DNA from: Rhododendron vialii
Taxonomy: Eukaryota > Streptophyta > Magnoliopsida > Ericales > Ericaceae
Direction of reading: 5' to 3'
DNA: 64,000 nt
Assembly (NCBI RefSeq): GCF_030253575.1
Contig: NC_080559.1
Location: 4,114,501-4,178,500 of the forward strand
Under the pieces are notes generated by a model. The model was not told the DNA's origin. It saw only the letters and a program-made list of their open reading frames with translations, and searched no databases. Below, in pieces: positions 30,849 through 64,000 of the stretch (position 1 is the first letter of the stretch; each line of letters opens with the position of its first letter). Made by a program: the position numbers and the translations under genes.

Positions 30849-31529
30849 ATGACCTCAAGGAGTATAGCACCCAAGACATGTCAATTGAGCCATTATTCAG
30901 TAGTCTCGGAGTACATAATATACAGTGTCTGTACTCCTTCTCACATAACATGTGAGACCAACAAGGTGAATTCATAAATAACACGTGGTTCCGGCATTTT
31001 ATGTGAGAGGGAGCACGGACACTATTCTAAACTCCGGAACTGCTTAATAATTTTCGTACTTTTATAGCCTCAAAAACAAAATGTCAAAAACTACTGCTAA
31101 TTAATCTTATCGTTAACTTTAGAGTCCTAGGGTTCTCGAAGTGTACAAAAATTACTAGGGGTATACCAACTTAATTATATATTAAAAACTATAGATTAAA
31201 AGAACTTAGAACGGTATCATTATACCGATTGTGAAAGAACACAGTAATTGTTCCTATGTCATATTCAAATAGCGTGTAGAGTAAATATTGGGTACTACTG
31301 TACCAAAGTATCGTGTAACGTTGCTTACAAGATATATTCTGAGTGCATAAATTACAGCGAAATAAACAATGTGGGTCACATTAGTCTTTCAATAATCTAA
31401 CAAAAGGGTAGTTGTTTAACAAGCAGAATTAATCATTACGTGATTCATCGGACACAGAGGAGCCTTCTTGGAAGAAGACGTATACCAATTGGCAATTGCT
31501 TTCATACCACGTGCAGTGGAGGAGAACAT

Positions 31530-31765
31530 TTTCAGTGCAGAGCGGGTACTACGTGGTGCCCATTTGGTGAATTCGGACTGTCCATTCGGTTTTGGACATC
31601 TCGGATTTGGAGAGAGAAATCAGAGAGAGAGTGTTGGGATGAGAGGAGAGAGAATGGTTCAATTTGGACCGTTCAATACACTTTTAGACGGTTCGGATGT
31701 GTTGCTCGGGCACCACGTCAGCCAGGTGACGTGGTACCCACCCGGCACCCAAAAATTAGACCAGA
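31530..31765. mobile_element. About 235-bp insert in an MT promoter segment
   Basis: MT-B promoters read 'gcagtggagaccagaaag' (26951). Here about 235 bases separate 'gcagtggag' from 'accagaaag'. The insert contains 'ggttttggacatctcgg', GA-rich sequence, and 'ccaggtgacgtggtacccac'. A related insert lies at 58378-58605. No clear terminal repeats were found, so the type is unknown. Confidence 0.5.
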
Positions 31766-31797
31766 AAGAAAGGCTGTTATCGATCATTGATGGCTGT

Positions 31798-32298
31798 GAT
31801 CTTGTGATGGTGGCTCAAGCCATGCATTGGTTCGATCTCCCAACGTTCTACAAACAAGTCAACTGGGTACTCAAAAGGCCCCACGGAGTCATCGCCGCGT
31901 GGTGCTACATCATCCCGTAAGTCAACGATCGCGTCGACTCGATTTTCAAACAAATCTACTTTGTCGATTTGAGAGCGTATTGGAGTTCGGGCCGGAACTT
32001 GATTGTGAACCAGTACAGGAGCATCGATTTCCCATTCGAGCCTGTGGACGGAGCCGATCACACGGGCCCTTTCGAGTTCAAAACCGAGCGACTGATGGAC
32101 TTGGAAGAGTACCTCGCGTACACCATATCGGGGTCAGCGTACCAGACGGCGCGCGACAAGGGTGTGGAGCTCTTGAGTGATGATGTCATTGAGGAATTTA
32201 AGGAAGCTTGGAATGTAGATGGGAATGACAAGAAGGTTGTTAAGTTTCCTACTTATCTAAGGATGGGAAAAGTTGGGGAGTCTAAATTGTATGACTAA
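31798..32298 (+). pseudogene. MT-A2 pseudogene, 5'-truncated
   Basis: The sequence is nearly identical to MT-A1 from LVMVAQALHWFDLP to the stop (ending GKVGESKLYD), but exon 1, the intron and the start of exon 2 are missing. Upstream is MT-B-type promoter sequence ('gctgttatcgatcattgatggctgtgatctt'-like, in pieces), so promoter and late exon 2 are fused at about 31797. A GAA-to-TAA change after WCYIIP (31918-31920) adds a stop. The enzyme's SAM-binding motif I is absent, so any product would be inactive. Confidence 0.9.
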
Positions 32299-47031: not shown

Positions 47032-47048
47032 GTATTCCCTAGGCATTC

Positions 47049-47749
47049 TGTTTGTCTATTTTACTGATAGTCGACTAATCGACTAGAGATTGCTAAGTGT
47101 GCTGGAAATGTGGGTGTTTGTGGTGGTGGAGTTTGGTTCCTTGCCGTATTTCAGGACTTCTCTGGAAGCAAACTTAATGAAGTGAATGGAGATGGAAGAA
47201 GAACAACAAAATGGACTTTATTATCCCTCGGTGTAGAAGTCAAATCGACTATGAGAACACAATCGAACAGACGGTTAAATTACAAGCTACTCCTAGAGCA
47301 AGAAATGTAAAGTACAGATAAAAGTAGAAGCCTTTGGGCGATTGATTGGGGGCTCTAAATATCTTCCTTTCTTGTATTTATAGGCTGTTGTCGACTTGAA
47401 ATTCAAATCATACGGACTTCCCTCCTTCGATTTGAATTAGTTGGCTCCATGCTCCCTATTCTTGCTCCACTATCTGCATGAGGCGGTTACTTCTCCATGA
47501 TCTCACATGTTTCCAACGTTGTAATTATTTCAACTGCCTGCTTGCATTAACCGTCTGACTCACGATCCGCATGTGATACAAAATTCTGACACGTGTCCAG
47601 TCGAATATCAACCGTTTGATCAGTCCATTTTCCTTAACAGGCTTCATATTGCATTTGCATTATATCAATCGGTCTAAAATGCGTTGACACGTGTAACATT
47701 CTGACCCAATCGATTATAATATACTAAATACTAAATTATGGTGTAAACA
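47049..47749 (-). repeat. LTR, subfamily A (3' LTR of the composite)
   Basis: 701 bases from TGTTTGTC to GTGTAAACA, with inverted TGTTT/AAACA ends. The adjoining 'atgcccccct' is a purine-rich tract on the minus strand, as expected next to a 3' LTR. The short open frame inside (47110-47310) also occurs in the other LTR and is not a gene. Confidence 0.92.
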
Positions 47750-47815
47750 ATGCCCCCCTATTTACCTGAGTTAAATATTAACTTTGGTAAATATTTCGCT
47801 TAGCAAATCACCACC

Positions 47816-47823
47816 TATATAAG
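47816..47823 (+). promoter_or_regulatory. TATA box of the antisense PMD gene
   Basis: TATATAAG in 'cacctatataaggcagag' lies 92 bases before the ATG at 47915, on the strand opposite to gag-pol. It is followed by a leader containing 'ctcgaaccctagaacagc'. This suggests that the captured gene kept or gained its own promoter. Confidence 0.6.
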
Positions 47824-47914
47824 GCAGAGTACTTCAAATTTAGGGCACGAATCGTGCTTTTTCTCACAGAACGTTGAAACAGCTCTCGAACCCTAGAACA
47901 GCTTCCGAACCCAA

Positions 47915-49054
47915 ATGGCACCGAAATCCAAACTACAGATCGTCAGCGACCCAGTTGAAGATCCGGCCACCGAGTCAGTGACGGAGGATTCCTTCCGATT
48001 CCCTGAATCGTACCGAAACGGGATTGGCCAAAACCAGAAGACTCAAGTTCTGATTCCTGACGATAATGTCAGTTCTCACTGCATATTGGGTCCAATTTTT
48101 TCATCAGTTCTCCCGGATGGCTTTCCAGAAGTCTACCCAGTGGGGGAACGTGATCCACTTCTCCTTCAGCTTCCGTCGCTGGAATGGTTAGGCTGGGGTA
48201 AGAACACCTGCCTTCGTTCTTGGCCTTACACCGTTGAAATGGGATGGGTAGATTGGGTAAGGCGCATGATGAAGTTCCTTTTCGAGGATTGGAAAACAAT
48301 GGGAATCCGTGAGACAATTGAGCTCTCACAATATCCCTTGGACATGAATTCTGAACTCTTGGCTGCTGCAGCGTGTTTTTGGTCCAAATCATCCAATACC
48401 CTAATTCTTCATTGTGGCTTGCTATCTCCGACAGTCCTGGATATCTCTCATTTAACTGGCCTTCCTTCGTTAGGCCGTGAGGTAAATGCTCTGCTTTCTC
48501 CTGATCCATATGATCCCCCATTTGTTGTTCCATCGTCTGGGGTTAGCTATTCGAAATGGCTTAAGACTCACTTTAAAGCCAAAGCTTCAGCGCCTTGCTT
48601 TCATGAGAAGGTTGCATTTTACCTTTTCTGGATTTGTCGATTTCTTATGGCAGTCCCTGGGCTTAGGGTTACCAAAGAATACCTTAACCTAGCCGTTTGT
48701 ATGGCCCAAGTAAAGAGGTTGGCCCTTGCCCCTTTTGTTTTAGGATCTCTGTATAAAGGCCTTTTTACCTTTGTTGATAAAAAGATAGCGGACTCTTGTG
48801 GTGGTCCTTTCTGGATCTTTCAAGCTTGGTTATATGCATACTTCCCTCAAATAAAACCTAAACTGGAGAACCCCCTTCGGTCAGATGAGGCATTGCAAAC
48901 ATGCCGTAGTTATGCTGAATATTTGTTAGTATTCTACTTTCATCGAGTTGAAAAGAAAATTGAAACATTTCTCCTTTTGGAGATGTCAGAACAACACCTG
49001 CCCCAACTCCATTATCTGTTTTTGAACCATCAAAAGACAGTTGCCAAGGTTTAA
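47915..49054 (+). CDS. Plant mobile domain (PMD) protein, antisense in the retroelement
   Basis: A 379-residue open frame from MAPKSKLQIVSDPVEDPATE runs on the strand opposite to gag and RT. Landmarks such as WKTMGIRETIELSQYPLDMN, LAAAACFWSKSSNTLILHCG and LSPTVLDISHLTGLPSLG are typical of the PMD (aminotransferase-like, PF10536) family. That family is known from the Arabidopsis silencing-related proteins MAIN and MAIL1 and from plant transposons. The last 30 or so residues, after about 48950, run antisense to the RNase H part of pol, so the 3' end borrows element sequence. A TATA box at 47816 suggests a separate transcript. Whether it helps the element evade silencing is only speculation. Family assignment is fairly sure, function unknown. 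Confidence 0.75.
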   Translation: MAPKSKLQIVSDPVEDPATESVTEDSFRFPESYRNGIGQNQKTQVLIPDDNVSSHCILGPIFSSVLPDGFPEVYPVGERDPLLLQLPSLEWLGWGKNTCLRSWPYTVEMGWVDWVRRMMKFLFEDWKTMGIRETIELSQYPLDMNSELLAAAACFWSKSSNTLILHCGLLSPTVLDISHLTGLPSLGREVNALLSPDPYDPPFVVPSSGVSYSKWLKTHFKAKASAPCFHEKVAFYLFWICRFLMAVPGLRVTKEYLNLAVCMAQVKRLALAPFVLGSLYKGLFTFVDKKIADSCGGPFWIFQAWLYAYFPQIKPKLENPLRSDEALQTCRSYAEYLLVFYFHRVEKKIETFLLLEMSEQHLPQLHYLFLNHQKTVAKV

Positions 49055-50825
49055 GCTCCAAAAGATGTACCTCAAAAGTATCCTCTTCCAAAGGTAGATT
49101 TGGATGCTCAGCTAAGAAATCTGCCAAAGCTTGTCCTTTTACTGCCTTTTGAGGCACATATTCAAAGTCATACTCTACTAGCGCTAAAATCCATTTCCCC
49201 TGTCTCCCTCTCAAAATGGGTCTAGACAGGATATATTTTATTATATCTGTTTGGGAAATGATCATTACTCTAGCTGGCAAAAGGTAATGCCTTAATTTAA
49301 TTGCTGAAAAATATAATGCCAAACAAATCTTTTCCACACATGAATACCTACTTTCACAATCATTTAACCTTCTACTTAGGTAGTAAATTGATTGCTCTCG
49401 GCCTTGTTCATTATCCTGAGCTAACAGACTTGCAATCGAATGGTGCGTTGCTGATATGTACAACTTCAATGGTTTTCCATTTATTGGAGGCATCAGAACA
49501 GGAGGTGTCACCAAAGATTGCTTTAAAGTATCAAAAGCTTTCTGATGCTCTTGTTCCCATCTGAAATCTTTTTCTGACTTCAATTTTAATAATGGGGAGA
49601 ATGCCATTGTCTTTCCAGATAGATTGGCAATAAATCTTCGAAGGAAATTAATCTTTCCCAAGAACTGCTGAAGTTCTTCTTTATTGGTTGGTGCCTGTGC
49701 TTTCAAAATAGCATCAGCTTTAGTTTTATCAATCTCAATCCCTTTTTGATGCACCAAGAATCCTAAAAAGTTTCCTGCGGTGACACCAAATGCACATTTC
49801 AAAGGATTCATTTTCAGATTGTAACGCCTCATCCTTTCCAGAGTCTGTTCAAGATGATGTAGGTGCTCGTCAACTGAATTTGATTTTACAACTACATCGT
49901 CTATATAAACTTCCAAGAATTTATGCAAAAAATCATGGAAAATTAAATTCATAACTCTTTGATAAGTTGCACCTGCATTTTTCAATCCGAAAGCCATGAC
50001 CACCCATTCAAACGTCCCTATGTATCCAGGACATCTAAACGCTGTTTTATGCGTATCTTCTTCAGCTATATATATTTGATTATAACCAGCATTACCATCC
50101 ATGAAGGACAGCATTTGGTACCCTACTGTTGCATCGACTAGCAAATCAGCAACAGGCATTGGATATTGATCCTTTGGTGATGCGGTATTAAGATCTCTAA
50201 AATCAACGCATACTCTAACTTTCCCATTTTTCTTTAATACTGGGACAACATTTGAGACCCATTCAACATACTTGACCGGTCGAATAAACTTTGCCTCAAA
50301 TAAACGTTCCATTTCTTTTTTGACTTGAGGTAAGACATCATCCTTCATTCTCCTTGGTGCCTGTTTAAAAGGTACGTAGTTCTCCTTTATAGGTATTTTG
50401 TGTTCAACTAAAGACCTATCTAAACCTGGCATTTCATCATAACTCCAAGCAAAACAATCTTTAAATTTACGCAACAAGTACTTAAACTTTTCCTTTATTT
50501 CAATAGGCAAAGCAGCATTTACATATGTGATCTTAGGATCTTCTGGAGTTCCCAAGTTGACTTCTTCTGTGGGATCCTTTACTTGGGCCCCGTCATCATC
50601 TAGCTTAGCTGGTGCTGGTTTCAGGTCTGCTAATCCTAACTCTTTCATGTTTAGAGGGCTATCATCAAAAACACACTCAGCCCAATTACAAGAAATAGGC
50701 TCATCTGCCTGCAATTTTCTGTCAACAAGAAAAGAAAACAACCTTTTAAAAGTGGCTTTCACAGTAGCCAAATCTTCACACCCTGTGTTCAATAGGTTTC
50801 TAAACATTAAAAACTTGTTGATCAA
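48858..50825 (-). mobile_element. Reverse transcriptase / RNase H region of the Ty3 composite
   Basis: A long minus-strand frame shows Ty3-type RT marks: PVLKKNGKVRVCVDFRDLN, FMDGNAGYNQI, VMAFGLKNAGATYQRVM and the catalytic block EVYIDDVVVKS near residue 310. RNase H-like sequence follows, with FDGSKTDNGVGAGVVLTSP. The FMDGNAGYNQI and FGLKNAGATYQR style suggests the Tat-like lineage. RNase H sequence gives way to antisense PMD sequence near 48950. Fossil part; not an active gene by itself. Confidence 0.9.
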
Positions 50826-53800
50826 TCTTGGCAGGCCTTGAAATAATGTTAGGCCTGATAAAATCTTTGCTCAGCTCCTGGAACCCTTCCTTGATGTATT
50901 TGAGGAATTGGCTCTCAGTTACTCCAACTTGATTAGATCTGACTTCTGAGTCTTCTATTCTTGTTGGCCACAAATGTTCGTTGTAGAGATCTGCTTCTAC
51001 GTTGTTAGTCTCTGCTTTGAATGGATGTCGGTCTGCCCAAAAGACCTCCATTCCCGCTGCTTCTTCTTGCTTTAGAAAGATCAAGGCCTGATGCAAAGAA
51101 GACGGCACACAACTATTTATATGGATCCAATCTCTGCCTAGTAAGGCATTGTAATTAGATGAAGAATCGATTACGAAAAACGTTGCATTCATCTTCCTAT
51201 TTCCAATCTGTAGTTGTAAGGATATGACCCCCTTAGCAGGAGAACACCCTCCAGCGAAATTGCCAACTGTAACCTCTGTTGGGATCAGGTCATCATTGGT
51301 TTTGTTCAAAACTTTGAGCATTCGAGCAGGTAAAATATTAACTACTGCCCCATTGTCGACCAACACTTTCGAGATAGGTTGGCCATTCATATGCAGTTTA
51401 ATATACAGTGGTCTTAAATGCCTTATTGAGGCATCATCAGGTGTTCTAAGAACTACAACACTGTTTCCATGTTTATCCGTCTCAACATTAATGGGCTGTG
51501 ACTGAGGATGCTTCTCTTTGTCCATTATTTTTACAATCGATTGGGTATTATCCTCAACATCGCCTGCCAAATTCATTGGCTGATTTGGTTTTGCCTTAAA
51601 CTGCTTAGGCAGAACTAAAATCATATTACACTGGTAGTTTATAGGTACTGACCCGAATTGGATTGCGGCCAGGCTTTCTCCAAATGTTGCAGATCTCTGT
51701 GGAGACGGTGACGCATCTTTGATCAGGTCTTCCTGTTCTGACCCTTCGTCAAAGAGATCATCATCATCATCTGCCTCCATGAGCTTCTGGAATTCCTCCA
51801 TTTTCTTCTTTAAGCTCTGCTTCAATTCTTTTTTACCCTTCAGTTGGGCAGTCGACTGGGGAGGATCTGTAGCACTACTCTCTTGCCCCCCATGCTTTTG
51901 AATTATCTGCTTTGGGCCACTAGTTTCTCCTTGATCCCGGGTCCATACCATGTTTGGAACCTTTGATGGTTCCAATCTCTCTCTTGGTTCGAACACATGG
52001 TCCCATGGGTCACCATAAGCCCTGGCTGCAAACTTCCTTTGAAGCCTTCTTTTCTGTGAACTGGATACCTTAGTGTACCAACCCTCTGCTGGGAACTTTG
52101 GATGGCTAAGCGTGCTCCATTCCTCGTGATCATTATTGGGTGGCATTACCATCCTAGGTTGGTGCCATCCACGTCCATAAGGTCCTCTACCTCGTGGTCC
52201 AGTATCTCTTCTGAAACCAACACCCCTTTGACTAGGGTATCTCCTCTGATTAGGAAATTGGTACCCCGCCGCCTCAAGATCTTGGCAAGAAGGCACCCCA
52301 GGCCTTGCAGGCACGACTGGATGTCCCCTGAATAAAAATGGTCCATCATCTGGCCCATAGCAATGCTCTGACTCTATTCTGTTAAAGAGCCCCGGATCTA
52401 TACCTTCATAAATCAGTTTGGCTCCCACATAAATTTGAAGGTCATTTCCTCCCATTGTGTTGAACCTCAGTCCGGACTTGGAGAATGCACTTCTCTGATC
52501 TTTTTCTGCTATAATTGCTTCCCCATACTGGACTTCATGCCCACACCTAATGCAGAGGTAGTCGTTTGGGAATCTAGAGGTATGAGACTTTGCTGACTCT
52601 TCTTCAGTCTGCATGTGATCCTCCTCCCCCTGCTTTTGTTTCGTCACATTGGAACCTAGCCTTTTGGCTAGGCCGGCCGTCACCATGTTCACTTCAATCT
52701 TGGGAAAAGGATTGGATTCAATTCCCATGGGATCCTTGTCGCCTTTAGCATACTGCAACAGTCCCTTCTGGATCAAGTCCTGCACACAATTTCGGAATGT
52801 AACACAGTTGTTAGTATTATGCCTAAATGAATTGTGCCATTTACAATATTCTTTTCCTTTTCTATCCTTATCAGAAGGAATAATATGCCCAGGACTCAAA
52901 GTAACAAATTTTTGTTTCAACAATTCATCAAATATTTGGTCAGCTTGTGCCAAATCAAACGAATATTGTCTATAATTTGCTTGCCCCCCACGCCTATTGG
53001 GTTGAGATGAAGGCATATTCATTGGTTTTTCTGTTTTAACCAAAGTGTCACAAATTATAGGGGTCTTTCCAATGACTTGCGCTACATCAATCTCAATATC
53101 ACCTTCCACATCTTGGTAATATGTTCCTAGAGACGTGTTCCTCAAAAGCTCTTCTTCTTGTAAAATAGCTTCAAACTGAGATGCCCTCATGGAGAGCTCA
53201 AACAGATCTTTGAAATTAGATCCATTGAACTGCTTTTTAAAATTAAACTCGAGACCATCTTGAGCTATTCGAACTATCTCGGTCTCTGGCACATTACAAT
53301 GACATTGGTTTCTTAATCTCTTAAATCTAGTTAAAAACTGTTCTGCCGTTTCATTTGGCTTCTGCTTTAACTTAGCCAAGTCGGCAATTGAGACCTCTGG
53401 TTCATGTCTAAAATATTGAGCATGAAATTGTTCTTCCATATCTTGCCACGTATGGATAGAATTTGCAGGCAGGCTTATGAACCATGTGAATGCTGTTTTA
53501 GTTAATGAATGTGGGAATAATTTTAACTTAAAAACATCATCAGAGCCAAGTTCTCCTAACTGTAGACAAAACCGTCCTACATGTTCAATTGTCGACTGAT
53601 TTTCTGTACCACTAAAAAGTGAAAGCTCAGGCAATTTATACCCTCTTGGCAAAGGAACATTGTCAACCCAATGTGGGTAAGGCTTTCTAAACATGGGTTT
53701 TTCCACCCTGCGTAGCCCTGGTCCGTACACATCTTGGATGACTTCTAATATTTGTGCTCTATTAATATTCATGGGATCTGGGGCTCTAAGGACATTTGGT

Positions 53801-54519
53801 ACATAAGGTTGTGCAAGAGGGCCATTCTGACCGTTCCCATTGCCAATGTTTGGCACATTGTGAACGTACTGACCACTATTTCCATTATTCGGTCCTACTG
53901 GCATAGTATGATAAGTATAACTGCCATGATTTGGCAGAGTTTGTGCGGCATTGTATATGTGTTGACCATTATTCATGACATGGACTCCTGTGAAACCAGC
54001 CTGAGGACTTTGACTAGAATTTAAACCATGATTCTGACCATTTCCACTACTGTTACCAACTTCATATATAGATGGGACACTCTGGTAAAAACTAGTTGGC
54101 TTGATTGTGGACCGTAGAGCAGTTGCTTCAACAAACGGTCGACTGTGCACATTCATATTTGAATCGAATGCTGGATTTGTATATACCTGTTGAGGTGACT
54201 GTCTAGGCAGATCTCCAGTTTGCAGTTGCTCATGTACTACACCATGTGCATCCACATCTATGACAGATGGGGGCGTAATTACCCTTCTCAATAGGGTAAT
54301 CAATTCCTGTGCCGCTTCGTCTTCTGGGTTAGACAAAACTTGTGCCAACTGCCTGGAAAGGCCCTGTATATTTGTTGGTGCGCTCAAGCCATTTCCTTGG
54401 CTATTTTCTGGCACCCTTTGTTCAGGATGCGCCACGTCAGTTTGGCTTTCTAGGCCTTCATTCTGAGGCTCTGCAGGTCGGTCGCCTTGTTTCCTTGTCG
54501 CTGGTGCCATTACTTCCAA
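50800..54519 (-). mobile_element. gag and protease region of the Ty3 composite
   Basis: This long minus-strand frame starts just inside the middle LTR's primer-binding-like site. A retrotransposon gag block is visible around residues 300-360, including LFPHSLTKTAFTWFISLPAN and TWQDMEEQFHAQYF. An aspartic protease site, VLVDNGAVVNILPA, occurs near residue 1050. A long Asn/Gln-rich N-terminal region precedes gag. It lies directly before the RT region in element orientation. Confidence 0.88.
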
Positions 54520-54553
54520 ATTAGTAATGATGCCCTCCTTCTAGCGCCAAAAT

Positions 54554-55356
54554 TGTTTACCAATTTTTCCCTCAATCGAAATCGATAGAAATTTCGGGAA
54601 ACAAAGCCAACAACAAAAATAAGGGCGAATGCGGCCATGTCTCCACAAACGGATTTGAGGTTCCTTGCCGTATTTCAGGACTTCACCGGAAAAGAAATGG
54701 CGAATGAATCAAATGCTATTTTTTGGTGATGATGAATTGACTCGTAAAAGAAGACCGTCACCCGCCAATCTTCAAGAACGGAATCGACCCATCGATTGGG
54801 CGGAGTGGATTGATGGTTTAGTGAAGTGGGGTGGAACGGAAGAAAAATAACAAATGGACTTTGTTATTTTTCCAAGGTAGATTTACAATCAAAAAGGACG
54901 GATCCCCATCGAAAGTAAGAAAATTAAGTTAATTCTACTCCTACTCCTAGTTATAACCCGAATGGGTTAGTAGTGCCAAAAATTAAGACAAATAAAGATA
55001 GACTTTGATTTGTTGGAGAGGAATTACAATGAAGTCTTAAAAGACTATTTATAGAAAACAACAAACGTAGGAAATAACTTCCTAACTTCTCCACTAGTCT
55101 TCATTCAATCTTTTGCTTTCACTTGTCAAAATAACTTCCCACTTCCCTTCAAATGTGTAGGAGCATGACAAGTGTCCTTTTAACTTCCACATGTGTAGGA
55201 GCAAGCCAAGTGTCCTGCATGCAAATAATAATAAAAGGAATACTAATATTAGTTCTAATATTAATACGAATACTTAATAATAATAAAATAGGAAGCATTC
55301 TCATAATTGCCACCTTTCGGTCGATCATCGACAGGCGGTGAAATATGGTGTAAACA
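54554..55356 (-). repeat. Middle LTR, subfamily B
   Basis: 803 bases from TGTTTACC to GTGTAAACA. On its left is a primer-binding-like site (54532-54549, 'tggcgctaga' on the minus strand). On its right is a purine-rich tract (minus strand of 'atgcccccctt'). It therefore serves as the 5' LTR for the left internal region and the 3' LTR for the right one. No direct repeats flank it. It shares only short blocks with LTR A, such as 'ttccttgccgtatttcagga'. Confidence 0.88.
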
Positions 55357-57671
55357 ATGCCCCCCTTATTCATTTGGGTGAAGAGCTAACGTAACCCAAG
55401 TGAATAATTTCACTAGTTTTAAATCACCCCTCTGTCGATATCGACGGGTAATAACTCTTTATGGTGTAAACATTTATGCCCTCCAACTCAATTGGGCAAT
55501 CAATTGATACCAGAAACAGATCATGTTGGACATACGTGGCCTATCGAATAAAGGCCTATATATCAAAACTCTACGAATGGCATATCGATAAAAGGATTTA
55601 TGCCATGAGCCTTAATCAAGTACAAGCATTTGTTTACTTAATTTCTCCCCCAACATTTGATAAAGAAAAGGCCAAAACACGCGCGTAGCAAACGACAAAC
55701 ATTCCCCTTGATCAAATTATGGGAGTTGAGATTCTTTCAATAAAGAAAAGGCCAAAACACGCGCGTAGCAAACGACAAACGTTCCCTCTATTGAATTCAT
55801 CCGAGATTTCGGAAAACAAAGTTGAAACAAGAGTAAGGGCCAAAAGCAAGTAATAACCTTTTATAGTGAAAACATTTATGCCCCGCCAACTTTCGAAGAG
55901 TTTGAGATAAATTTTTACACAACATTTTCACTTTTCAACTAGTACAATAAAGCCTTCAAGGCTTAATAACCACCGTCGAATGGTGGCATGCCTCAGTCGA
56001 TTAGTTTCCCTTAGGCTTTGATTCCTACAGGAAGGAAACCGGGAACGTCAAAACATGGTTAGTCGATCAGAGCACTACGCATATGCCATGAGCCTTGCCT
56101 AATCCCCACAATAATGAACTTTAAAGTCACAAACAACAGCCAATTAATAGGCATCATTTGGCTTCACACGTTGGCTACTATATATATGCATTAATACCAA
56201 ATACCAACATCTATTAGCCAACTCCATCAAAAACTAATTTTCCGTGTCCTCCAAAAATGTATATTGATCGACAGAAATCAATACGCAGAGTATTTATAGC
56301 CATGTTTGGCTGAAAACATTCTCCATGGTTAAATTTTCACCATTACTCTTCTTAACCAGTACGGAGGAATGGGAGGATCATTTTCTACGTCGACCATCTA
56401 TGGTCTAAATTGAAAAACTCTAGTCGAATGACTATTTTCATGATTCGACTTGCTTGAGTTTCAAATTTTCGAGCCCCTAATTGGCTCTTCTAAAGATGAG
56501 TTTGCCCCCCTTGCAAACTCGATATCAAAAGAGGGCTAATTCTCATTTCAATCATCCATTTCAATCATCCTTACTAAAATCTGGATGAAGGAGACATAGA
56601 TGCCAGCAAGACCTTTGAAAATTTTCCAGTCGCCAACGATGAACCATGGCCTCTTTTTAAAACAGTTGAAAATCATAAACTATGAAGGCCTTTAGGAACA
56701 CAGGTGGCGCCCAAAATTACAAGTCTCTACATGTCCATTATCGACTGCAAAGTGTTCAAAGTCGACTAGACCAAGCAACCAAACCAATTGTTGCCATATA
56801 TCCAAAGTTGAATTTCTGCCCTCCAAATTCATCATCGAAAAGAGGGACAAATTTTGCCCCCCAAGACTCATGGGTATAGCCTTTCAATGATGCCAAGAAT
56901 TCACAGATTGTCCCACTTAATAAGGTTAATCTTCCTATTGGATGACATTCTTTAAACACATAAATTAGTGTAGCCTCTGTATTAGGCTAGAATTTTTCAT
57001 CTCTTACATTTGTTTATAATGAACCCTCTAATTTGGGTTCATATTCGAAACAAACAAAGCCATGTAGCCTGTCGAGGAGCAATTGCAACACAGCCAATCA
57101 CAGTGGCTTTATGCATACCTGAATGAGGTCTTCACTCCATTTAATGTTTGAATTAAAAAGGCTAACACTAATCCAAAATTGGATTAACGTATTAAGCCAT
57201 ATGATAGTCTCCTGCACTATTTCTTACCAACGAGACTTTCTGTGCACATTAATGGCCAAATTAACAGTTACATTTGTTCCAATTTAGGGACAAATTTCAC
57301 TAATGGCCTTTTTTACAAAAGATTATCGAAGCCTCCATGTTTATGGCAAGCAAAGACAAATTCTTTACGAGGCAAATCAATGCCTCTTTTGAACCTTTTT
57401 GTCAAAGGCAGAGACATGGTTCAAATCCCTCAAACAGTTGGCCAACAATTGGCCGGCTTCTTTTGAACAATAAATTGCTTTCAAGCCCATCATGCAAAGC
57501 TTGAAAATTATTATTTTTACATTTGATCCGGAACCTGACTGTTCCAATTGGCCAACAAATGGCCGTTTATCTATTACGTAAAATGTCAAAAACCTTTAAG
57601 GTTTTCTTTTCACATATGATTTCACCATTACTTCCGATTTAGTAATGATGCCCTCCCTCTAGCGCCAAAAT
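55357..57671 (-). mobile_element. Non-coding internal region between LTR B and LTR A
   Basis: About 2.3 kb without a recognisable domain. It carries a direct repeat of about 79-base period ('aaagaaaaggccaaaacacg' at 55664 and 55743). It also has two further stretches that imitate an LTR-tract junction ('ggtgtaaacatttatgccc' near 55462 and 'gtgaaaacatttatgcccc' near 55866). It resembles the untranslated 3' part of a Tat-like element. Confidence 0.6.
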
Positions 57672-58372
57672 TGTTTGTCTATTTTACTGATAGTCGACTA
57701 ATCGACTAGAGATTGCTAAGTGTGCTGGAAATGTGGGTGTTTGTGGTGGTGGAGTTTGGTTCCTTGCCGTATTTCAGGACTTCTCTGGAAGCAAACTTAA
57801 TGAAGTGAATGGAGATGGAAGAAGAACAACAAAATGGACTTTATTATCCCTCGGTGTAGAAGTCAAATCGACTATGAGAACACAATCGAACAGACGGTTA
57901 AATTACAAGCTACTCCTAGAGCAAGAAATGTAAAGTACAGATAAAAGTAGAAGCCTTTGGGCGATTGATTGGGGGCTCTAAATATCTTCCTTTCTTGTAT
58001 TTATAGGCTGTTGTCGACTTGAAATTCAAATCATACGGACTTCCCTCCTTCGATTTGAATTAGTTGGCTCCATGCTCCCTATTCTTGCTCCACTATCTGC
58101 ATGAGGCGGTTACTTCTCCATGATCTCACATGTTTCCAACGTTGTAATTATTTCAACTGCCTGCTTGCATTAACCGTCTGACTCACGATCCGCATGTGAT
58201 ACAAAATTCTGACACGTGTCCAGTCGAATATCAACCGTTTGATCAGTCCATTTTCCTTAACAGGCTTCATATTGCATTTGCATTATATCAATCGGTCTAA
58301 AATGCGTTGACACGTGTAACATTCTGACCCAATCGATTATAATATACTAAATACTAAATTATGGTGTAAACA
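57672..58372 (-). repeat. LTR, subfamily A (5' LTR of the composite)
   Basis: 701 bases, seemingly identical to 47049-47749, ending at the CATTC target duplication. The sequence just left of it, 'ctagcgccaaaat', is the primer-binding-like site read on the minus strand. Confidence 0.92.
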
Positions 58373-58605
58373 CATTCCCTAGCCGTGCCTTCAGTGTCGG
58401 GCAGCTACCACATGGTATCCATTTGATAAATTCAGATCGTTCATTTCGGTTTTGGACAGTTCAAAGTTGGAGGGAGAAACACGAGAGAGAGAGTTGGGAT
58501 GAAATGAGAGAGAGTGGTTTAATCTAGGCCGTCCAAACATTTTTGAACCATTCGGATGTGTTGTTCGAATACCACGTCAGCCGGGTGACGTGGTACCCAC
58601 CCGGC

Positions 58606-59408
58606 TGTTTACACCATATTTCACCGCCTGTCGATGATCGACCGAAAGGTGGCAATTATGAGAATGCTTCCTATTTTATTATTATTAAGTATTCGTATTA
58701 ATATTAGAACTAATATTAGTATTCCTTTTATTATTATTTGCATGCAGGACACTTGGCTTGCTCCTACACATGTGGAAGTTAAAAGGACACTTGTCATGCT
58801 CCTACACATTTGAAGGGAAGTGGGAAGTTATTTTGACAAGTGAAAGCAAAAGATTGAATGAAGACTAGTGGAGAAGTTAGGAAGTTATTTCCTACGTTTG
58901 TTGTTTTCTATAAATAGTCTTTTAAGACTTCATTGTAATTCTTCTCCAACAAATCAAAGTCTATCTTTATTTGTCTTAATTTTTGGCACTACTAACCCAT
59001 TCGGGTTATAACTAGGAGTAGGAGTAGAATTAACTTAATTTTCTTACTTTCGATGGGGATCCGTCCTTTTTGATTGTAAATCTACCTTGGAAAAATAACA
59101 AAGTCCATTTGTTATTTTTCTTCCGTTCCACCCCACTTCACTAAACCATCAATCCACTCCGCCCAATCGATGGGTCGATTCCGTTCTTGAAGATTGGCGG
59201 GTGACGGTCTTCTTTTACGAGTCAATTCATCATCACCAAAAAATAGCATTTGATTCATTCGCCATTTCTTTTCCGGTGAAGTCCTGAAATACGGCAAGGA
59301 ACCTCAAATCCGTTTGTGGAGACATGGCCGCATTCGCCCTTATTTTTGTTGTTGGCTTTGTTTCCCGAAATTTCTATCGATTTCGATTGAGGGAAAAATT
59401 GGTAAACA
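58606..59408 (+). mobile_element. Solo LTR, subfamily B
   Basis: 803 bases from TGTTTACACC to GGTAAACA, flanked by the 5-base duplication CCGGC (58601-58605 and 59409-59413). It is the reverse complement of the middle LTR at 54554-55356, same length and nearly identical, so it is also young. The internal region has been lost, presumably by LTR-LTR recombination. It lies inside the 235-base insert type also seen at 31530. Confidence 0.92.
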
Positions 59409-59509
59409 CCGGCACCCCAAAAATTAGACCAGAACACCCGGCACCCAAAAATTAGACCAAAAAGAGTGGCTGTTATCGATCCTTGATGGCTGTGGTCTTA
59501 TTTTTCAAA

Positions 59510-60395: not shown

Positions 60396-60413
60396 AAAGA
60401 TGTGGTTGCGTTC

Positions 60414-60420
60414 TATAAAA
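60414..60420 (+). promoter_or_regulatory. TATA box of MT-B3
   Basis: TATAAAA in 'gcgttctataaaattgg' is 85 bases before the ATG at 60499. This proximal block is conserved with MT-B1 and MT-B2 even though the sequence beyond 60396 has been displaced. Confidence 0.7.
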
Positions 60421-60450
60421 TTGGAATTGGGACCAACCATTGATCCAGAT

Positions 60451-60484
<34 letters not shown>

Positions 60485-60498
60485 CTAAAGAGAGAGAG

Positions 60499-60653
60499 AT
60501 GGCGGATTTGTTCCACAGGCAGGCAAAGAATTACGCAGAGTCTCGGCCGAGTTACCCAGAAGAGCTGTTTGAATTCATTGCCTCAAAGACTCCAAATCAC
60601 GACCTTGTTTGGGATGCCGGCACCGGCAGTGGCCAAGCCGCTAAATCTGTAAG

Positions 60654-60694
<41 letters not shown>

Positions 60695-62049
60695 TTAGAA
60701 TGACGGATTGTCCGTTTGTTTGGGGATGCTCCTAGTGGGAAGAAATATAGGAGTATAATCTAAGAGCAGGAGGCAGTGGCATTCGAAGCGTTCGGCTCAA
60801 TCCTCTAATTCCGTCCAGTTTTCAGCATTTTTTGAGTTCATCCAGGGCCCAGATAATTGACCAGATCATTGATCGGGCTTCGATAGCTACATGAACAAAT
60901 CATACGTGCAAAAAAAAAAAGGAACCGTGGCAGTCCATTTTTTTCCTGCACTAGTATAATTTGTCCATATAGCTATTAATGGACGATTAAAACAGATTTT
61001 TGGCATGAAGATTCTTCTTTTCCAGTTTTATAAAATAAACGATCCAGATCCCCCTTGCGGGTATGAGAGGGGCAACAAATGCCGAAAACTGGATGGGGAC
61101 TGAGGATTATAGACAACGGGAGCCCAATGCAGCTAATTCTTTTGTCCAATGGTTACTCGTGTTTTCAAACAATCTACTCCATATTTCAGTTACTTTGTAT
61201 AGAATTTCATTAATGGTAGTTACAAAGAAAACGTAATGTCATAGAAAATAGCCTCGTATTGTTGTACTAATGTGATGTGTTATGATAGAATAACCTGTCT
61301 CGTTAAGGAGAAAATGAGTACTTGAAAAATAAGAATCTTAACAGAACGGGGCTTAATAATATTGCAAAAACAAAAATTTGCAGCTAGCAAAGTTGTACAA
61401 GAATGTGGTAGGCACAGACACAAGCCAGGAGCAACTTGACTTCGCACCCAAGCTCCCCAACGTGCGATACCAATGCACCCCTCCAAGCATACCTATGTCC
61501 GAGCTCGAATCCAGTGTGGCACCCTCGGGAACGGTCGATCTTGTCACCATAGCCGCAGCCCTCCACTGGTTTGACCTCCCCACCTTCTACCAGCAAGTCA
61601 AACAGGTTCTCAAAAAACCCCATGGCGTCATCGCTGCCTGGACCTACACCATCCCTGAGGCCAACAAAAAATTTCCCTTGGCCAATGAGAAATTCGACGC
61701 TCTTTTCCGACAGTTTTACGCTGACTCCCAGCCTTACTGGAACCCTGCCCGTAAGTTAACGGACGACAAGTACAGAGGGATTGATTTCCCGTTCGAGCCG
61801 GTAGGTGATGGGGCCAACCACACGGGGCCATTTGAGTTCACGACGGATTGGGTGATGGATTTGGAGAGCTTTCTCACGTTCATAAGGTCGTGGTCGGCTT
61901 ATCAGACGGCAAAGGAGAAAGGAGTTGAGCTATTGAGAGATGACGTGGTTGAGAGTTTCAAGAGTGCTTGGAGTGAAGATGGTGTTGATCAAAGGGTTGT
62001 GAAGACCCCTATTTATCTGAGAATTGGGAAAGTTGGAAACTTGGAGTAA
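60499..62049 (+). CDS. SAM-dependent methyltransferase MT-B3, two exons
   Basis: Exons 60499-60648 and 61384-62049 (phase 0, GT-AG) give 271 residues. Exon 1 matches those of MT-B1 and MT-B2, with motif I VWDAGTGSGQAAKS. Exon 2 includes VDLVTIAAALHWFDLPTFYQ, GVIAAWTYTIPEANKKFPLA, GIDFPFEPVGDGANHTGPFE and ends TPIYLRIGKVGNLE. The frame is intact. (GA)n tracts (60454-60483 and 60490-60499) and (CT)n (60655-60688) flank exon 1 and are the longest of the set. Its distal promoter has been separated by retroelements, so its expression may differ from MT-B1 and MT-B2. The substrate is unknown, as for the family. Confidence 0.92.
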
Positions 62050-62299
62050 GAGGAGAGTGGAGACTCATGTGTGCATTTTGTTTTTCGTTGAATCTGAACT
62101 TTGTTGTCAAAAAGTGCACCATCAATTTACAATGTACTAGAATAACATGGTTGCAATATCATCACCTTGTTGTTGATGCAACTTTAATCGAATTCTGCTA
62201 GAAGGTTCAAAACTAGCCAATTGGGATCAATAATATCATTAGAATGTGTCCGAATCTCTATGAGACGATGACATGTACTGAAAAAACCCCGAATTCCTC

Positions 62300-63220
62300 T
62301 TCATTTTTGTGTGTGGAGACGACAACAGCTACATTCAGGTAAGTCGTCATTTTACCAACAAAAAGAAAGGAAGCAGTAATATGATGCACCACCATCACCA
62401 CGATTTCTAGTAATATCAGTGCACGACATAAAGCCTATACTTGGGAAAATCTTACATGTCACAAATACAGGGTTCTCACTCAGTAACGGCGAGAGCTGAC
62501 TGTAATACATCTTCAAGGTACTTCTCAGCAAATACTTGTGTCGGCTGCTGCTTGATATGCGATTTGGCTAGCGGTTTATTATTCTCCAGGAATATGCTTG
62601 TGTCGAAAGTGTTTGTTTTGTTTTGAGGGTGTTGTGCGGATTGGCGTACTTTAGTGCTGGCTGTGGTTCAGCGTTTTGTTGTTTCCGTTGTCGGTCTGTT
62701 GTAGGTGGACTGGAGTTGCGGGTGGGTATGGGGTTTTCGTTGTTGTTTCTACGTAGAGCTCTGTTTCAATTTTTTGGATGGGATGAGTGGAGCTTGTGTT
62801 TAATTACTAGTATTATTTGTCTCTTAGTAGTGTAATTTCAATAACCACTCTGACGTCTGTTCTGCATTTGTTCTACTGCTATTTCTGCGTTGTAGTTAGT
62901 TTCTATGATCCGGCTCAGATCACCATCTAGTTTGCAACTTTGCCTGATGTGTTTTCCATGCACGCGACATTCTCTACCTGGGGTGTTCCACACCTGGTTT
63001 GCCAGTTAGTGGGCAAGCTTGTCGTTAGTGGAACTAGGGCTAGTACCTGGGGTGTACAAGTTCTGTACATGTTGACATTCTCCGAGGTTGATACAACGAT
63101 TTACCTAGCGGGGCAGGGTGGTGGTTGCTTCTCGGTCGTTCGGAGGTTTACGCTGTATAGGCGGGTCCAATTAGTGGCCCTCCTATGGGGCGATCCTTCG
63201 TCACCAAAATAAAAAATAAA
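62300..63220. other. Unclassified sequence between MT-B3 and MT-B4
   Basis: About 0.9 kb breaks the mirrored MT downstream regions. It is richer in G and T than its surroundings ('ggtggactggagttgcggg') and ends 'cgtcaccaaaataaaaaataa', which resembles the 3' end of a LINE. No domain or start was found, so the LINE idea is weak. Confidence 0.35.
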
Positions 63221-63478
63221 AACTCAATTTCAATAAGCTGAAAAAACTTATAATGTAACTCCGTTTTGTATGCATTTGGCTTTCTGTTTTAGCAGAATTC
63301 AGTTCTATTAAATCTAAGAGTTTTCATCAAATTCAATATGACATGTACAAAATTTGTTTTAATATATGATATGATATGAAAAAGTGATGCCAAAATATAC
63401 TGCAACAATGTTATTCTACTAGTACATTGTAAATTGATGGTGTACATTTGATGCAACGAAAAACAAAATGCACACGAG

Positions 63479-64000
63479 TTACTCCGAATTTCCGACTTTC
63501 CCAATCCTCAGATAAACAGGGGCCTTGACAACCTTTTGATCAACACCATCTTCACCCCAAGCTCTCTTGAAACTCTCAACCGCATCATCACTCAATAGCT
63601 CAACTCCCTTGTCCTTCGCTGTCTGATAAGCCGACCACGACCTTATGTACGTGAGAAAGCCCTCCAAATACATCACCCTTTCTGTCGTGAACTCAAACGG
63701 CCCAGTGTGGTTAGCCCCATCGCCCACTGGCTCGAACGGGAAATCGATCCCCTTGTACTTGCCTTCCACTAGCTTACGTGCTGGGTCCCAATAAGGCTGG
63801 GAGTCGGCGTAAAACTGTCGGAAGACAACGTCGAATTTGTCATTGACCACCGGAATGTTGTCTTTGGCCTCAGGGACGGTGTAGCACCACGCGGCGATGA
63901 CGCCTTGGGATTTTTTGAGTACCGATTTGACTCGATGGTAGAAGGTGGGTAGGTTAAACCAGTGGAGGGCTTGGGCTACGGTGACAAGGTCGACAGTTCC
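63479..64000 (-). CDS. SAM-dependent methyltransferase MT-B4, 3' part (partial)
   Basis: An open minus-strand frame runs from the window edge (GTVDLVTVAQALHWFNLP) to a TAA at 63481-63479. It reads VLKKSQGVIAAWCYTVPEAK, GIDFPFEPVGDGANHTGPFE, LEGFLTYIRSWSAYQTAKDK and VVKAPVYLRIGKVGNSE. It is the C-terminal 173 residues of an MT-B-type enzyme; exon 1 and the start of exon 2 lie beyond the window. It faces MT-B3 tail to tail, and their 3' flanks are inverted copies ('tgcattttgtttttcgttg' on each coding strand). One difference is HWFN where the other copies have HWFD. Confidence 0.9.
   Translation of the reverse strand, partial: GTVDLVTVAQALHWFNLPTFYHRVKSVLKKSQGVIAAWCYTVPEAKDNIPVVNDKFDVVFRQFYADSQPYWDPARKLVEGKYKGIDFPFEPVGDGANHTGPFEFTTERVMYLEGFLTYIRSWSAYQTAKDKGVELLSDDAVESFKRAWGEDGVDQKVVKAPVYLRIGKVGNSE

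Follow-up and report, generated by a model that had tools for sequence, protein, structure and literature searches.

In the LTR (long terminal repeat) retrotransposon complexes described by Sabot and Schulman in 2007 (PMC1950507), outer LTRs that are alike and a single duplication are explained by template switching in the R region, which yields chimeric LTRs. The article also describes, citing Devos et al. 2002, recombinant complexes of adjacent elements, in which neighbours on the same strand are joined via their LTRs, the internal LTR is chimeric, the intervening DNA is lost and no duplications flank the product. Tandem LTR-retrotransposons are common in plants (rice and others) according to the sections of Morales-Diaz 2025 (PMC11899658) used here, and for Onsen a high frequency of recombination between co-packaged transcripts has been reported (PMC5668417). 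Here we describe a three-LTR composite in a stretch of 64,000 nucleotides from Rhododendron vialii (hereafter the window, C3:4114501-4178500), in which two LTRs of one kind (A) enclose a single LTR of another kind (B) and two internal regions, x and y, in the order A-x-B-y-A. Our analysis indicates that this locus is very probably not one composite insertion but two LTR elements at two target sites which have exchanged their ends.

Results

Two target duplications and two kinds of LTR in the window

The outer LTRs of the composite, both on the minus strand (LTR A; 57672-58372 is the 5′ LTR and 47049-47749 the 3′ LTR of the gag-pol part, y), are identical at 701/701 bases, and a CATTC target duplication lies outside both (47044-47048 and 58373-58377). 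Between them, in the same orientation, is a single LTR B of 803 bases (54554-55356), bordered on its right by a sequence resembling a polypurine tract (PPT), ATGCCCCCCT, and on its left by a primer-binding site (PBS), which reads TGGCGCTAGAAGGAGGGC on the minus strand. The order on this strand is 5′ LTR A, PBS, x, PPT, LTR B, PBS, gag-protease (PR)-reverse transcriptase (RT)-RNase H, an antisense open reading frame (ORF), PPT and LTR A. A target duplication was looked for at the flanks of the middle LTR B and none was found (AAAAT versus ATGCC); a nested insertion of this LTR was rejected, since it lacks a duplication of its own and is flanked by PBS and PPT instead. These points, that is, identical outer LTRs within CATTC and a middle LTR which is not nested, had all been made in the original prediction from the letters of the window and were borne out. 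The length and identity of the repeats at this locus are not a matter of chance.

A second LTR B (58606-59408) lies on the opposite, plus strand, 233 bases beyond A-x-B-y-A. It is identical to the middle LTR B at 802/803 bases and carries its own duplication, CCGGC, on both sides (58601-58605 and 59409-59413). The locus as a whole thus comprises two LTR A, two LTR B, x, y, two copies of CATTC and two of CCGGC. We searched the genome (532.6 Mb in 13 contigs) by similarity with LTR A, LTR B, x and the junction of y with LTR B, scoring 40 of 557, 344, 237 and 387 candidates, respectively. Among the LTR B matches listed, ten full-length copies are near-identical. Six of them form the ordinary pairs of C13, C11 and C8, and the remaining four are the two LTR Bs of the window and two on C7. 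Full-length matches then drop to 86% at best, and apart from the window and C7 no near-identical LTR B without a partner was listed. When the ten were compared, LTR position 238 (55119 in the window) was A in the middle and outer LTR B of the window and G in the eight others; of the other six variable sites, 23, 57 and 323 sort by element or element group, and 337, 785 and 787 are changes in single LTRs. Because the private base at 238 is common to both, the middle and the outer LTR B look, judging from their sequences, like the two LTRs of one B element, and because this partner, with a duplication of its own, lies only 233 bases away and shares that base, we take two target sites to be involved.

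The window would then hold a deleted gag-pol A element at CATTC and a short B element at CCGGC, 233 bases off and in the opposite direction, with their 5′ ends facing. The original prediction had regarded the 11.3 kb as one integrated unit and had named a second LTR B close by, with its own target duplication, as what would speak against this; just such an LTR is present at 58606-59408, and integration as a single unit is not supported. The accompanying proposal of an exchange between A and B elements stood as far as the exchanged parts are concerned, while the geometry proved different, with two target sites. Both kinds of LTR are unmixed: LTR A shows 0 differences from the LTRs of the C1, C3 and C6 copies over 701 positions (three sites vary in the C8 copy), and the window LTR Bs deviate from ordinary LTR Bs only at single sites.

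The host DNA between the two target sites (58378-58600, plus strand) is in its native orientation. With both elements taken out, the flanks align to a paralog within the window (31360-31900 was given to the alignment) with a score of 432, which drops to 192 if the middle piece is flipped; the A site falls in a poorly aligned stretch of this empty-site alignment and the B site in a well aligned one. Several diverged copies of this kind of region, direct and inverted, occupy 22000-46400 and 60400-64000. They contain a methyltransferase-like frame, for which 61360-62049 gives a Pfam match, and one neighbouring copy represents a near-empty site for both insertions.

Internal regions and the exchange joints at the PBS

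Region x (55357-57671, minus strand, with its PPT at 55357-55366) is the internal region of a short B-x-B element, of which ordinary copies on C13, C11 and C8 consist of LTR B, PBS, x, PPT and LTR B between matching duplications (CACAC, GATTC and GGTGG, respectively). Outside gaps it is 99.5-99.6% identical to these copies, with 9-12 differences over 2300-2315 aligned sites. It carries a 141-base deletion that is absent from the five other copies aligned, and it has no frame of at least 120 aa and no recognised coding frame. Two substitutions are private to it among the six copies aligned, one at 56822 and one at 57657, the latter within the PBS of x (57650-57667, minus strand), which is now attached to LTR A.

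Region y is the internal region of an A element without about 5.3 kb. The joint of this deletion is at 48920-48929, where both sides share TATTTGTTAG. In full-length A copies the LTR starts lie about 12.83 kb apart, and in one such copy the integrase was located in the part that is absent from y. What remains on the minus strand is a frame for gag and protease (50800-54540; Retrotrans_gag, E 7.1e-17, and gag-asp_proteas, E 1.5e-5, which is under the Pfam cut-off), a frame for RT and RNase H (48858-50870; RVT_1, E 3.8e-28, RT_RNaseH_2 and RT_RNaseH) and a PPT (47750-47759). The antisense ORF on the plus strand (47897-49054) encodes a plant mobile domain (PF10536, E 5.6e-29) and is shortened to 385 aa, compared with 554 aa in a full-length copy. 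The order PR-RT-RNase H-integrase marks gypsy elements, and by position it is found in a full-length A copy, where RT and RNase H were placed by homology to y and the integrase lies behind them. The PBS of y (54532-54549, minus strand) is now attached to LTR B, with an A-type leader behind it.

In the window, therefore, the leader that follows LTR A is of B type and the one that follows LTR B is of A type. A 38-base tract, comprising the last five LTR bases, the PBS and the start of the leader, is the same in ordinary A and B elements, and because of this identity both switches between LTR and leader were placed within it. On the minus strand it corresponds to 54521-54558 at the middle joint and to 57639-57676 at the 5′ joint, where it covers the end of LTR A, the PBS and the first B-type leader bases. 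The longest exact run found in common for the window pair is one of 38 bases at the PBS; the LTRs share at most 26 bases and the PPT side 23.

A second locus with exchanged ends and inverted host DNA

One strand of C7:8343471-8354351 carries LTR C, x2, PBS and LTR B, the opposite strand carries LTR C, PBS, x1, PPT and LTR B, and the two elements are separated by 2868 bases of host DNA (C7:8347518-8350385). The LTR C copies differ at 1/693 sites and the LTR Bs at 0/803. The duplications cross-match as reverse complements, the outer CAACC with the inner GGTTG and the inner GCTTG with the outer CAAGC. The host piece forms a single open frame that encodes NB-ARC, winged helix and LRR domains and matches Rx_N from profile position 41 onward only. 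An N-terminus in frame with it is found in the right-hand flank when this is reverse-complemented, and an LRR-like end, likewise in frame, in the left-hand flank (both were recognised by eye as ends of a resistance protein). Since these ends join the middle piece in frame if it is turned back, and not as assembled, the host segment is inverted between two elements whose LTRs have been exchanged at the PBS, and the rearrangement must therefore have been completed at or after integration. The longest run shared by the C7 elements is on the PPT side (43 bases, versus 27 at the PBS), and the exchange is nonetheless at the PBS.

As a consequence for the host, an NB-ARC/LRR disease-resistance-type gene on C7 is cut in three by the two elements, with its middle 2.87 kb inverted. 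In a similarity search with x″, the x region of a composite on C4 described below (40 of 244 candidates scored), loci on C13 and C2 equal C7 x2 in match score and in PBS-PPT distance (2550, 2551 and 2551), but have an A/C-type LTR end before the PBS.

Two exchanges would be enough to connect the parts, both duplications, the shared private base and the junctions of the window with the inverted gene on C7. We infer that an ordinary pair came first, A-y-A on the minus strand and B-x-B on the plus strand with 5′ ends facing. In exchange (1) the 5′ LTRs would be swapped at the PBSs, within the 38-base identical stretch, giving A-x-B and B-y-A halves and a state like that of C7. In exchange (2) the two inverted LTR Bs would exchange, turning the x half beside y and restoring the orientation of the host DNA; this would leave A-x-B-y-A and an inverted, solo-like LTR B with its own duplication, which is the window part for part. 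C7 would carry exchange (1) only, and the host DNA would be native in the window and inverted on C7 because the second exchange in the window turned the segment back. Order and timing are less constrained: the same two exchanges might have run in reverse, with a one-LTR B circle being excised and re-entering at the PBS of its neighbour.

Genome census and other composite loci

Junction pairings and neighbour counts were based on 29 + 72 = 101 exact LTR-PBS junctions. When these were compared with 85 PPT junctions in the exact-pattern census, only the middle LTR B of the window was found to lie between PPT and PBS. The original prediction had raised the prospect of a propagating chimera, with other loci in the same order. 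Neither the matches listed nor the exact-pattern searches gave a second A-x-B-y-A with the window parts, and propagation is not supported; elsewhere, x-type sequence with an A/C-type 5′ LTR was met only with other parts (C7 and C12) or in diverged form (C4). Of 64 paired exact junctions, 6 combine 5′ and 3′ LTRs of different types; the window, C7 and C12 contribute two each, those on C12 sharing one PPT. No simple mixed-end element, that is, A-x-B by itself, was seen among the paired exact junctions. For 25 B-type 3′ LTRs, the 5′ LTR is of A/C type in 4 (window, C4, C7 and C12) and of B type in 15, and none was found for 6. All neighbours within 20 kb among the 101 exact junctions belong to composite loci (window, C4, C7, C10 twice and C12), and about 0.02-0.05 head-to-head pairs within 5 kb would be expected for that number of junctions.

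The older composite on C4 (C4:11627434-11667716) reads LTR A″, PBS, x″, PPT, LTR B′, PBS, an interrupted y″ and LTR A″ and is flanked by ACGCT at either end. Between its outer LTRs there are 41 differences over 639 sites (Kimura two-parameter distance, K2P, 0.067). LTR B′ is 0.037-0.041 from three relatives; these distances fit an LTR B′ of roughly the age of the insertion, although the relatives are as far from each other. A second LTR B′ did not turn up within C4:11615001-11674400. C4 fits a composite that was inserted in one event, or else an exchange that has lost its partner; being a diverged composite, it was rejected as a copy of the window composite, and a composite made by single insertion may exist in this genome without being such a copy. 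LTR B′ (701 bases) is 99% identical to LTR B over B positions 378-803 and 89% over 1-162 (in window orientation), and unlike it in between, so that the LTRs themselves seem to be mosaics.

C12:895899-902156, rejected as a copy of the window composite because it is an aberrant mosaic, begins on the left with a B′-type LTR, ends on the right with a 3′ LTR of this type cut to 60 bases, and contains an LTR A joined to PBS-x′. In the surrounding C12:894000-903500, pieces of 168 and 392 bases from the left-hand host flank are repeated beyond the right end, as in aberrant integration. At C10:28508683 there is a homotypic case without a PPT before the middle LTR, probably the result of nesting plus deletion. 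A wider exact pattern, for which 100 of 149 places were listed, led to an unrearranged tail-to-tail pair at C9:7083500-7091000, with abutting 3′ LTRs, one of which is short of its last 46 or so bases.

Discussion

Several observations weigh against an exchange between two elements at two target sites. The window is known from one assembled sequence, and exchange (2) joins inverted repeats of 803 bases, which could be a choice of the assembly; gene conversion between nearby LTR Bs could likewise have produced the base common to them at position 238; and tracts of 27-38 bases are a short substrate for ordinary homologous recombination. C4 suggests that this genome also has a single-insertion route, and a homotypic three-LTR tandem with AAGTG on both sides is present at C10:37958390-37965454. 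This one looks like an ordinary homotypic tandem, its compared LTR stretches (the ends and part of the middle LTR) being 100% identical. The single-insertion model of the original prediction, in which A-x-B-y-A arose by template switching of co-packaged RNAs and entered at CATTC in one integration, with the inverted LTR B as an unrelated solo LTR, has some evidence on its side: identical outer LTRs and one duplication are the marks used in Sabot and Schulman 2007 (PMC1950507), the parts on C4 are arranged in a like order and no second LTR B′ was found in the region searched there, and C12 mixes A and B′-type parts. It would nevertheless require an unpaired, near-identical LTR B to have landed 233 bases away by chance and to share base 238, and the published switch in R predicts chimeric LTRs whereas both window types are unmixed; we consider it improbable. 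That reads were mis-joined through LTR or PBS repeats is still less credible. The inverted LTR Bs could indeed have let an assembler flip the segment between them, but ordinary reads are longer than a PBS junction, the structure as assembled agrees with both duplications and with the host paralog, and C7 has the same type of junction with a consistent host inversion.

If two elements did exchange their ends, as we favour, the remaining question is when, and here we lean only slightly towards an exchange during joint replication and integration rather than later. A switch at the PBS is expected from second-strand transfer in reverse transcription. A reciprocal strong-stop or second-strand transfer at the PBS between co-packaged genomes would give A-x-B and B-y-A, integrated together, with like LTR ends paired at each of two nearby target sites; we give this not quite an even chance. 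The window, C7 and C4 all have their switch at the PBS, LTR A is joined to PBS-x′ on C12, the 6/64 junctions with mixed LTR types are of the kind such transfers would leave, and one of the two private substitutions in x sits in the PBS. The LTR pairs are also young at both loci (0/701 and 1/803 in the window, 1/693 and 0/803 on C7), but the ordinary C13 and C8 pairs and the C1-C8 A copies are young too, and shared youth says little. Against joint replication stand the failure of our literature search to provide a precedent for cross-integration of two cDNAs with inversion of host DNA, and the absence of a simple A-x-B element, which this route might be expected to yield. The last point is in line with a later event, in which two finished, independent head-to-head neighbours recombined at their inverted PBS repeats and then at LTR B. 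Such recombination is a serious candidate, only slightly less probable than the joint route: it leaves no part and neither duplication unexplained at the window or C7, no exact run longer than the PBS tract was found for the window pair, and unrearranged neighbours do occur, as on C9. On the other hand it needs two young close pairs where only a few hundredths of one are expected, neighbours within 20 kb among the 101 exact junctions are confined to composite loci, and on C7 the exchange took place at the PBS in spite of the longer PPT run. We gave the adjacency less weight against later recombination because unrearranged neighbours were found on C9. A more specific version of the joint route, which we put forward tentatively, is that co-packaged genomes swapped strong-stop DNA at the PBS to form either a ring of two genomes or two reciprocal cDNAs with mixed ends, whose like ends joined at two nearby sites and inverted the host DNA between them. 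Mixed-end cDNAs would be unable to integrate alone; C7 would be the direct product, the window a C7-like product with an additional flip at LTR B, and C4 a ring opened at LTR A.

Three-LTR insertions are called as single events on the strength of identical outer LTRs and one duplication. The window has both marks and yet keeps the missing LTR next door, inverted, and surveys of three-LTR elements should check the flanks for an inverted partner. On C7 a retroelement pair splits a disease-resistance-type gene and has its middle part inverted; if joint integration is true, small host inversions would arise directly when genomes mix in one particle. Our literature search, which covered few subscription journals, found no description of PBS exchange between facing neighbours and little on inverted or heterotypic LTR pairs.

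Compared with described systems, the window resembles the complexes of Sabot and Schulman (PMC1950507) in the number of its LTRs (three) and of its internal regions (two), in the likeness of its outer LTRs and in the one duplication outside them. It differs from them in its second LTR B with its own duplication, its unmixed LTRs and the switch at the PBS, and in that its parts come from two different elements with unlike LTRs. With the recombinant complexes outlined in the same article it has in common two neighbouring insertions that exchange parts; unlike those, the neighbours face each other, the host DNA between them is retained together with CATTC and CCGGC, and LTR B is unmixed. As in the tandems of Morales-Diaz 2025 (PMC11899658), the two internal regions share the middle LTR and the outer duplications are of 4-5 bases, but the loci detailed in the sections drawn on have internal regions that are 94% and 99% similar, whereas x and y are different; it is the tandem at C10:37958390 that resembles their ordinary kind. 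The full-length A copies, with a long region between pol and the 3′ LTR and an antisense ORF, are like the Retand lineage as presented in the portion of PMC11963269 consulted. By domains, the basis of this comparison, they differ: TRP28 is reported there in 97% of clusters, while in our search of the antisense ORF behind pol it was not found, the Pfam match being to the plant mobile domain only, and a second frame of 398 aa in the C6 copy had no Pfam match at E 0.01. Finally, aberrant retroviral integration (PMC5041404), according to the excerpt that we used, also rearranges adjacent host DNA, inversions included; in that case one end was joined by host enzymes, whereas here all four outer LTR ends keep their 5-base duplications.

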